NCBI GenBank assembly: GCA_944392695.1
Contig: CALXXN010000007.1
Span: 1-64,000, forward strand
Reading direction: 5' to 3'
DNA length: 64,000 nt
DNA from: an uncultured Spirochaetales bacterium
Lineage (GTDB): Bacteria > Spirochaetota > Spirochaetia > Sphaerochaetales > Sphaerochaetaceae
In this document: positions 21,771-26,655 of the stretch, piece by piece
Position numbering within the stretch: the stretch's first letter is position 1
How the letters are laid out: every line of letters starts with the position of its first letter
Notes under the pieces: generated by a model
Told to the model about the DNA's origin: nothing
Seen by the model: only the letters and a program-made list of their open reading frames with translations
Databases searched by the model: none
Program-made: the position numbers and the translations under genes

Positions 21771-21804
21771 AACCCTGCTGGGACCTTCCTGGCAGGGTTT
21801 TTTT
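21771..21804 (+). terminator. pckG terminator
   Basis: AACCCTGC and GCAGGGTT form an 8-bp stem (21771-21778 with 21792-21799) that runs into a seven-T tract. Confidence 0.92.
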
Positions 21805-21942
21805 CATATTTTTATTTCCTTACACACCAAGTCTGTATTCATCTTTTCTGCATGAAAATCGAAAAAATTGCATATTCCCTATGGACAAAGATGCGCTCCA
21901 TCTTGTAGGATTCAGCCATCTCAGAAAAGGAGGACAAGGCTG

Positions 21943-22008
21943 ATGACACTCAACAACATCTTCACCGCCATGATGATGTCCTCCATGATGATGCCCGGCA
22001 GGGCATGA
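21943..22008 (+). CDS. Methionine-rich leader peptide upstream of the MetQ-like gene
   Basis: A 21-codon reading frame, ATG to TGA, with a strong SD (AAGGAGG ending 9 nt before the ATG). Seven of 21 residues are Met: residue 1 and the runs 10-12 and 15-17. Such codon runs are the signature of leader peptides whose ribosome stalls when the matching charged tRNA is scarce. It lies 120 bp upstream of a methionine-transport-type binding-protein gene on the same strand. The DNA GGAGGACA (21929-21936) at its SD is exactly complementary to TGTCCTCC (21977-21984) between the two Met runs, and a hairpin overlaps its last codons. Function is inferred from these features; too small for routine gene finders. 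Confidence 0.68.
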   Translation: MTLNNIFTAMMMSSMMMPGRA

Positions 22009-22021
22009 GATTCTTATTTTT
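21991..22021 (+). terminator. Candidate attenuator hairpin at the end of the Met leader
   Basis: ATGCCC and GGGCAT form a 6-bp stem with a GGCA tetraloop (21991-22006), followed after a few bases by TTCTTATTTTT. It overlaps the last Met codon, the C-terminal codons and the stop of the leader frame, so a ribosome there would block it. The spacer before the T-run makes it a weak terminator by itself. Confidence 0.4.
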
Positions 22022-22128
22022 CCATCACTTCCATTTTCCCGAGTAATTCCCAAGAACAACAAAAGAACATCCAAGACGGCCTGAGCTGTCTCCATATAGT
22101 CTTAAATCCATTTGGAGAAGGAAATAAA

Positions 22129-22941
22129 ATGAAGAAAACCATCGCTATCGCACTCATCGCGCTCATCAGCATCACAGCTGTCTATGCTTCTGGCAGCAGT
22201 GAGTCCAACCTTGCCGAGTCCACCACACTCCGTGTCGGTGCCACCCCAGAGCCACATGGAACCCTCCTCTCGCTCGTTGTCGACGACCTGGCAGAACAGG
22301 GTATCAACCTTGAGATTGTCGAGTTCACTGACTATGTCATGCCGAATGAGGCCCTCCAGTCTGGTGAGATTGATGCCAACTACTTCCAGCACCTGCCTTA
22401 CCTCGAATCCTACAACAGCGAGCATGGTTACAACCTGGTCAACGCTGGTGGCATCCATATCGAACCGATGGCTCTTTATTCAAGGCAGTATGCTTCCCTT
22501 TCTGAGATTCCAGATGGTGCCACGATCGCCATACCGAACGATCCGACCAACGAGGGCAGGGCACTCCTCCTGCTCCAGAGCGCCGGCCTGATCACACTGG
22601 CTGAGGATGCTGGTCTTGAGGCTGTTCCTGCTGATATCGCTGACAATCCTCACAACTTCTCATTCAGCGAAATCGAGGCTGCTTCCATCCCACGTGTCCT
22701 TGATGATGTCGATGCTGCTGTCATCAATGGCAACTACGCCATCCCGGCAGGTCTCATCGCCACACGTGACGGCCTCTATGTCGAGGGCGGAGACAGCCCC
22801 TATGTCAACGTCATCGCTGTCAAGGACGGCAACCAGGACGACCCAAAGGTCCAGGCTCTTGTCCAGGCATTGAAGAGCGATGAAGTCGCTTCCTTCGTCG
22901 CCGAGACTTATCCCAATGGAGAGGTCATCCTCGTCGACTGA
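22129..22941 (+). CDS. MetQ/NlpA-family substrate-binding protein
   Basis: Periplasmic binding component of a MetNI-type ABC importer, the family that binds methionine and its derivatives. It has 270 residues; after the signal peptide the mature chain follows the NlpA pattern (LRVGATPEPHGTLLSLV, YVMPNEALQSGEIDANYFQH, IAIPNDPTNEGRALLLL, DAAVINGNYAIPAGL). The signal sequence ends VYASGSSES with no Cys, so it should be cleaved by signal peptidase I and remain soluble, unlike the usual lipoprotein MetQ. No metN or metI gene is adjacent and a terminator follows directly, so it is an orphan binding protein. The upstream Met-rich leader supports methionine as ligand. GGAGAAGG precedes the ATG. Confidence 0.88.
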   Translation: MKKTIAIALIALISITAVYASGSSESNLAESTTLRVGATPEPHGTLLSLVVDDLAEQGINLEIVEFTDYVMPNEALQSGEIDANYFQHLPYLESYNSEHGYNLVNAGGIHIEPMALYSRQYASLSEIPDGATIAIPNDPTNEGRALLLLQSAGLITLAEDAGLEAVPADIADNPHNFSFSEIEAASIPRVLDDVDAAVINGNYAIPAGLIATRDGLYVEGGDSPYVNVIAVKDGNQDDPKVQALVQALKSDEVASFVAETYPNGEVILVD

Positions 22942-25355: not shown

Positions 25356-26655
25356 TTACCTGGAGCTGTCGTAGATGGTCCAGGATGCATCCGGGTTGTA
25401 ACGTACGCTCAGTGAGATGTATTGGACGTGCTGGTAATACATTCTGGTGACCTACTCTCCACCCTGCCTCACATTGCTGTGAGCCTGGGGATGGAGCTTC
25501 TTCCCGCTCAAGACGCCTGATGGCGCCAGTATCAGCGAGCTATCCCCGCTAGCCCAGCGGTTCAGGATGTCTTTACCCTCATCCAGCAGGTTCTTACAAC
25601 TGTTCTTGTCCCTGTCGTGATGTGTGCCACATGACTGGCATGTCCATTCACGGTCAGAAAGCTTCAGGTCGTGATTGACCTCATGGCACACTGAGCATCG
25701 CTTGCTCGAAGGGAAGAACCTATCGACCTTCACAAGTATCTTCCCACTGTCATTCAGCTTGTAGGTGAGCATGTTCCTCAGTTGTCCATAACCGTTGTCG
25801 TATACGGCCTTCCTGGAACATGTGGCAGTCGTAGGCGATTGTCGTATTGCCCGGTGATTCGAAGATATGATAGCTGAATTCCACACCAAAGTTGACAATC
25901 AAGGCCTGATAGCTGTCCGGGTAGGGGGTGCGTGGTTCCGAGTCCTGGTCGAGCCAGTTTGGAGCGAAGATCCAGGGACGTAGGTTGGTTGTGATCACTG
26001 GTACTGGGAAGTTCATGTCAACATAGACACGTAGCCAGTCGATAGGTCCTATTGAGACACCGATGTCGATTGTGTCCATGCGCTCGTACTTGTATGTGAC
26101 CCAGAAGTTGTTGATCTGGCTTGGATTGATTCTCTTCCAGACAGCATCCCCGTAATGTGAGCAGTAGTGGTGTAGACCTGCACGCAAGGAGAAGACATCT
26201 GCGATGCTCATCGTCAGGTCATAGAAGTACACTCCATCGTAGCCGATCGTATCTGCGAACTCACCTTCCATGTACAAGTTGACTGCCCCCTGCCAGGAGA
26301 AGTCGAAGGAGATGGGGCTGAGCCAGTGGTCGAAGGTGAAGGTATGTCGGAGTATGGAGATCGTCTCACCCAGGTTGATCTCAATCATCATGGGTGCCCC
26401 TGCGAAGGCCTCCGTCAGTGGATACTCCTCAATCACATAGCCATCACCGGTCCAGCCGTCTTGGAGTATGTAGGTGGGAAATAATCCATTGGTGTAGCAA
26501 GCCGGGCTCAGGGCGGGCATGGGCTTGTTCTTGTCAGCAGCGTACTCCTTGTAAATTGGATCGAATGAGAAGAGTTCTAGCTTGTAGTCGAAGTCAGCAC
26601 AGAGTGCTGCTGGAATCAACAAGAACAGTAGTGCGGTGTATAGGATCCGTCGCAT
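25356..26655 (-). pseudogene. Envelope beta-barrel-like protein gene interrupted by a TnpB fragment
   Basis: The N-terminal part (about 26655 to 25804) encodes a signal peptide (MRRILYTALLFLLIPAALCA) and about 265 residues rich in aromatic beta-strands, resembling an outer-membrane or periplasmic protein (possibly DUF1207-like, low certainty). After the residues CHMFQEG the frame runs into an IS200/IS605 TnpB remnant. The missing C-terminus reappears beyond it: MYYQHVQYISLSVRYNPD followed by ASWTIYDSSR and a stop at 25356-25358. Removing the insert would give a gene of about 295 codons. GGAGG lies 9 nt before the ATG at 26655. Function is presumably lost, or a C-terminally altered protein is made. 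Confidence 0.72.
25452..25803 (-). mobile_element. IS200/IS605-type TnpB (OrfB) 3' remnant
   Basis: About 115 codons of the C-terminus of a TnpB RNA-guided nuclease: NGYGQLRNMLTYKL, the zinc-ribbon Cys pairs CSVC and CQSC, and the RuvC-III block HHDRDKNSCKNLL; stop at 25452-25454. The RuvC-I and RuvC-II regions and all of TnpA are absent, so it is inactive. A CTCACA-GCAA-TGTGAG hairpin (25468-25483) near the 3' end fits the right-end stem-loop of such elements, where the omega/guide RNA scaffold normally ends. It is inserted inside the envelope-protein gene; the left junction is placed only to within about 10 bp. Confidence 0.82.

Follow-up and report, generated by a model that had tools for sequence, protein, structure and literature searches.

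A conserved methionine-rich leader peptide precedes methionine uptake and synthesis genes in a spirochaete family

The leader locus and its surroundings

The window analysed here is a stretch of 64,000 nucleotides from an uncultured Spirochaetales bacterium. On its forward strand, positions 21943 to 22008 hold a 21-codon frame with the translation MTLNNIFTAMMMSSMMMPGRA and a TGA stop, which matches the covariance model of the leader at 81.9 bits. The leader Shine-Dalgarno (SD) region (21928-21936) carries AGGAGG at 21928-21933, 9 nucleotides upstream of the ATG. The leader has a first Met run at codons 10-12 (21970-21978) and a second at codons 15-17 (21985-21993). Its seven Met residues are the highest count among the window's 196 SD-preceded open reading frames of 15-30 codons, counting both strands; in simulated windows, the top count was five in about 2,500 such frames.

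The leader ends 120 nucleotides before a 270-amino-acid gene on the same strand (22129-22941, SD region 22114-22121), which we take to be the regulated gene and refer to as metQ. Its product matches Pfam Lipoprotein_9 (NlpA/MetQ family, 5e-94) and the NCBIfam MetQ subfamily (2e-67), the latter under the strict MetQ cut-offs. The first-pass annotation had described a Met-rich 21-codon leader with a strong SD and seven Met, 120 nucleotides before a MetQ-type gene, and all of this is confirmed. It had also called the gene an orphan, which holds for its own locus alone: another contig of the genome carries metN and metI as a pair, without a leader (G000:C25; MetI 76% identical), and several relatives have metN-metI immediately before the leader and metQ. 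The leader itself is present once in the window genome.

Upstream, a 13-pair stem followed by a T run (21771-21805, forward strand) forms the intrinsic terminator of a PEPCK gene, and it is inferred from sequence alone that this terminator isolates the leader transcript from the upstream gene. A likely promoter, TGGACA-18-TAGGAT, follows at 21882-21911 on the same strand, and in relatives this position carries TTGAAA-18-TATTCT or TTGCAT-17-CATAAT. The promoter call rests on the consensus match alone, and the number of such matches is equal to that in shuffled sequences. Further downstream, on the reverse strand (25455-25898), a TnpB/Cas12f-like transposon protein survives as a C-terminal remnant with a TNB domain (4e-21).

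Conservation of the frame, its helices and the genes behind it

Relatives of the locus were collected via the MetQ-like protein, a sequence pattern and the covariance model; most of the genomes are metagenome assemblies. The pattern ATGATGN{0,3}CCCN{3,6}GGGCATRR matched in 71 of 139 genomes of the window's Sphaerochaetaceae-like family and its reversed control in none, and the covariance model placed the leader in 81 of 138 genomes of this family. Named carriers are uncultured Spirochaetales and Sphaerochaetaceae and Candidatus Ornithospirochaeta avicola. In a 395-genome sample of the class, the model found no leader outside the window's own family, and when the pattern was run across the class, matches beyond the family were merely scattered, close to the control level. 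One model match (L239 in G108:C13, E 0.0012) was judged a false positive. In the Treponema and Firmicutes loci, the regions upstream of close MetQ homologues contain no such leader. At one locus of another spirochaete family (G053:C24:562964-563066), a SAM-I riboswitch lies directly upstream of the MetQ homologue, occupying the leader peptide's place; that this reflects a swap of regulator between families is again inferred from sequence alone.

Leader statistics were computed over 63 loci, which encode 62 distinct peptides. All 63 start with ATG, lengths range from 19 to 25 codons, and all three stops are used (TAA, TGA and TAG at 27, 19 and 17 loci). Met makes up 27% of internal residues. 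ATG triplets number 339 in frame versus 9 and 1 in the other two frames, and 166 versus 9 and 1 when the last 24 nucleotides are excluded; these counts rule out an RNA-only origin of the ATG repeats. Several variants keep the frame: ATGATG-TG-CCC is accompanied by a longer, 5-nucleotide loop in hairpin P1 that restores it, three loci (L022, L038 and L043) have moved the stop codon into the P1 loop, and one (L235) has rebuilt P1 as ATGCGC-TAGC-GCGCAT, with CGC/GCG pairing. Sequence comparison thus shows that the leader frame and its Met codons are under selection. In the N-terminal half, both sequence and length drift. A comparison of this kind had been proposed as a check in the first-pass annotation, and its outcome, conserved Met codons and drifting N-terminal codons, supports the interpretation offered there.

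Two helices are conserved along with the leader, as sequence comparison also shows. In P0, the leader SD pairs with the leader's own Met/Ser codons; in the window the 5' arm is GGAGGACA (21929-21936) and the 3' arm TGTCCTCC (21977-21984), and relatives pair GGAGAGACA with TGTCTCTC, TAGGAGGTATGCA with TGCATGTCTTCTA, and GAGGAAAGACAT with ATGTCTTTCTTC. Native P0 pairs averaged -14.0 kcal/mol versus -11.3 for re-paired sequences, with none of 20,000 permutations as good. Given that the loci are related, such p-values overstate their independence; the safer test, with 10 divergent cluster representatives, gave 35 of 20,000 permutations as good. P1 (ATGCCC-GGCA-GGGCAT, 21991-22006, forward strand) is opened by the final ATG of the second Met run and covers the last codons and the first base of the stop. 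Its form ATGCCC-N4-GGGCAT is close to invariant across relatives, more than a mere hairpin would need, which hints at a recognised element. Consensus folding recovered both P0 and P1 in most subsets of loci, and fold comparisons found no conserved antiterminator alternative to them. A third hairpin, P2 (AGACGGC-CTGA-GCTGTCT, 22074-22091, forward strand), was found by folding; many relatives have hairpins of altered sequence at this position, about 45 nucleotides downstream of the stop.

Behind the leader, the next gene in the 63 loci encodes MetQ in 54, a permuted MetQ-like protein with its halves swapped in 6 (followed by an M20 amidohydrolase), an oligopeptide-binding protein within a transporter operon in 2, and MetN in 1, where the operon reads metN-metI-metQ-M20. 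More divergent model matches precede metA (NCBIfam MetA_acetyl, 1e-119), metY (NCBIfam, 637 bits against a cut-off of 495) and a gene whose neighbours are an aminotransferase-like frame and a divergent MetQ-like gene. The comparison shows that the genes behind the leader constitute a lineage-wide regulon of methionine uptake and synthesis. The link to methionine drawn in the first-pass annotation is supported by these other methionine genes, metA and metY among them; the lineage-wide regulon, the pairing of codons with their own SD and the hairpin over the stop were all absent from it.

Two observations concern individual members of this gene set. At L227:513-2803 (reverse strand), the leader lies upstream of an iron-containing alcohol dehydrogenase and an aminotransferase-like frame, divergent from a MetQ-like gene; these may be a methionine salvage operon. 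Several loci (L145:3048-3950 on the reverse strand, L146, L117, L136, L152, L159 and L228) encode a MetQ/NlpA-family protein that appears to be circularly permuted, with residues 29-157 matching profile positions 131-257 and residues 194-298 matching 28-132. The leader lies upstream of these genes, in the loci read an M20 amidohydrolase adjoins them, and the protein could conceivably take up N-acyl or otherwise modified methionine.

Proposed mechanism and rival explanations

Immediately after the leader stop lies a C/U-rich, G-poor tract (22009-22048, forward strand), whose rut-like character is inferred from its composition. The comparison of loci establishes the tract itself: over the 63 loci, the 40 nucleotides after the stop contain 7.9% G and 21% C, and C exceeds G in 62 of 63 tracts versus 15 of 63 controls of upstream non-coding DNA. 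Its pairing with either the leader SD or the metQ SD is no better than that of swapped pairs, which fits a tract kept single-stranded. Two candidate roles were rejected: as an anti-SD for metQ it shows no covariation, with native pairing worse than permuted, and pairing with the leader SD after stalling, suggested by constrained folding, failed the permutation test. An intrinsic terminator downstream of the leader was looked for at the window locus and not found, and Rho is present in the window genome and in all relatives checked. The missing terminator, the G-poor tract with its excess of C and the encoded Rho together favour Rho-dependent attenuation as the output. This step is inferred, and we stop short of calling it probable; control of translation or of RNA stability are the alternatives.

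The best explanation for these observations is likely to be a ribosome-mediated, methionine-specific attenuator, on comparative evidence only, without expression or ribosome data. A separate short transcript would begin just upstream of the leader, and a ribosome would load at the leader SD while the Met/Ser codons are still to be transcribed. Given ample Met-tRNA, it would complete the leader and depart; P0 would then mask the leader SD and P1 would close, so that the leader is read about once. The closed leader would leave the C/U-rich tract free of ribosomes, and through this tract the downstream gene's expression would be ended, with Rho as the likeliest agent. Under Met-tRNA shortage, the ribosome would stall at the Met codons and hold P0 open, a stall in the second run would hold P1 open too, and a stalled ribosome beside the tract would allow metQ expression to continue. 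The case for methionine sensing, though inferential, is well supported; the Rho output is not shown. Stalling and the direction of control are likewise inferred, and the first-pass proposal that stalling raises transporter expression remains an inference without expression data. A weak point of the model is that a stall in the first Met run leaves the tract exposed, and how stalling would block Rho is doubtful. Also counting against it are the missing intrinsic terminator, the lack of a consistent shift in predicted metQ SD accessibility between ribosome states, and the near-invariant P1 stem. A bolder reading, somewhat more likely wrong than right in our judgement, is that the leader represents an undescribed, family-specific class of methionine attenuator in which the Met/Ser codons are the anti-SD of their own leader, closure follows a single pass, and Rho, not an intrinsic terminator, exerts control.

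In translational attenuation, the Ser/Met codons (UCCUCC) would instead mask the metQ SD as its anti-SD and free it only when covered by a stalled ribosome, with P0 the competing fold. In one subset of loci (g16b: L036, L140, L174, L183 and L184), CATCAT-AA-GGAGAG upstream of metQ is complementary to codons CTCTCCATGATG, to -18.3 kcal/mol, and consensus folding of this subset pairs the codons with the metQ SD instead of the leader SD, which may reflect translational control specific to that subclade. Over 62 loci, however, codon pairing with the metQ SD is no better than in re-paired sequences (z -0.2), and predicted metQ SD accessibility hardly shifts between ribosome states, with small effects and no consistent change. 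As a general account, this alternative is unlikely.

Less likely still are a riboswitch and an arrest peptide. A riboswitch would bind SAM or methionine and switch its fold, the leader frame being secondary. The conserved helices, the near-invariant P1, an SD sequestration like that of SAM-III and the occurrence of SAM-I before a metQ homologue in another spirochaete family speak for it. Against it, ATG is conserved in frame only (339 versus 10), the stop is kept by function and not by base, no Rfam family matches, and no conserved aptamer-like core is seen beyond P0, P1 and the codons; we consider it very improbable. An arrest peptide, in which a small molecule would prompt the nascent chain MMMSSMMMP itself to stall its ribosome, gains some support from S-M-M-(M)-P being common at the peptide end. 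However, what follows the Met run differs between relatives (VRA, GRA, FGA, VWA) and is missing in some (MMMP followed by the stop), Pro becomes Arg where P1 is rebuilt, and the N-terminal half is unconserved, so that this account too is highly unlikely. The methionine-specific attenuator remains our preferred reading.

Comparison with known systems

Similar to the his, trp, leu, thr, ilv and phe attenuators, the leader is a short frame rich in the codon of its operon's amino acid, and like the his/trp/leu type it is a short 5' leader with hairpins by the frame and operon-specific genes behind. Unlike that type, it is specific for Met, its codons pair with its own SD, and no intrinsic terminator was found. 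Compared with the attributes of known classes, it has a short frame enriched in the regulating codon (its translation being inferred), downstream genes that make or import methionine (metQ, metNIQ, metA, metY and a peptide transporter), and C-rich, G-poor, unstructured RNA after the stop in genomes encoding Rho. It lacks mutually exclusive folds ending in an intrinsic terminator, and Erm-type SD sequestration with covariation, for which one subclade suggests an exception. We infer that the leader works like an attenuator yet is not a textbook member, because the defining intrinsic terminator was sought and not found.

SAM-I, SAM-III, the methionine T-box and MetJ likewise control methionine uptake and synthesis genes. 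An Rfam search of the window matched no riboswitch or other known family; genomes of the window's genus have no SAM-I above the cut-off, and the leader does not qualify as a member of the Rfam SAM-I family. Attenuators for His, Leu, Thr and Trp (Rfam) as well as Ile/Val and Phe appear in a 2013 survey of RNA regulons (PMC3766115), and one on methionine regulation in Proteobacteria describes repressors and riboswitches with leader peptides unmentioned (PMC4239095). Neither Rfam nor the open-access literature searched held a methionine leader-peptide attenuator, and nothing relevant was found in that literature on a Sphaerochaeta leader peptide or on Met codons with Rho. Met may be missing from the attenuator lists we found because Met starvation also starves initiation.

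Leaders of the tnaC and mgtL type use Rho-dependent termination. As in these, the frame is followed by an unstructured C-rich stretch usable by Rho, and the position of the ribosome would decide the outcome; the present leader has a run of amino-acid codons in place of the nascent-chain sensor of tnaC or the Pro codons of mgtL, and the role of Rho is inferred. New relative to known attenuators are the Met specificity, the spirochaete distribution, the self-masking leader SD and the absence of a terminator. If the leader proves functional, it would reveal how Met-tRNA can be sensed in a cell via Met codons. The defined motif could enter Rfam and help to annotate transporters. The leader occurs in many gut and sediment spirochaetes of a mostly uncultured group, and the comparison provides, for this large group, a regulon of methionine uptake and synthesis together with a leader whose codons hide its own start site.
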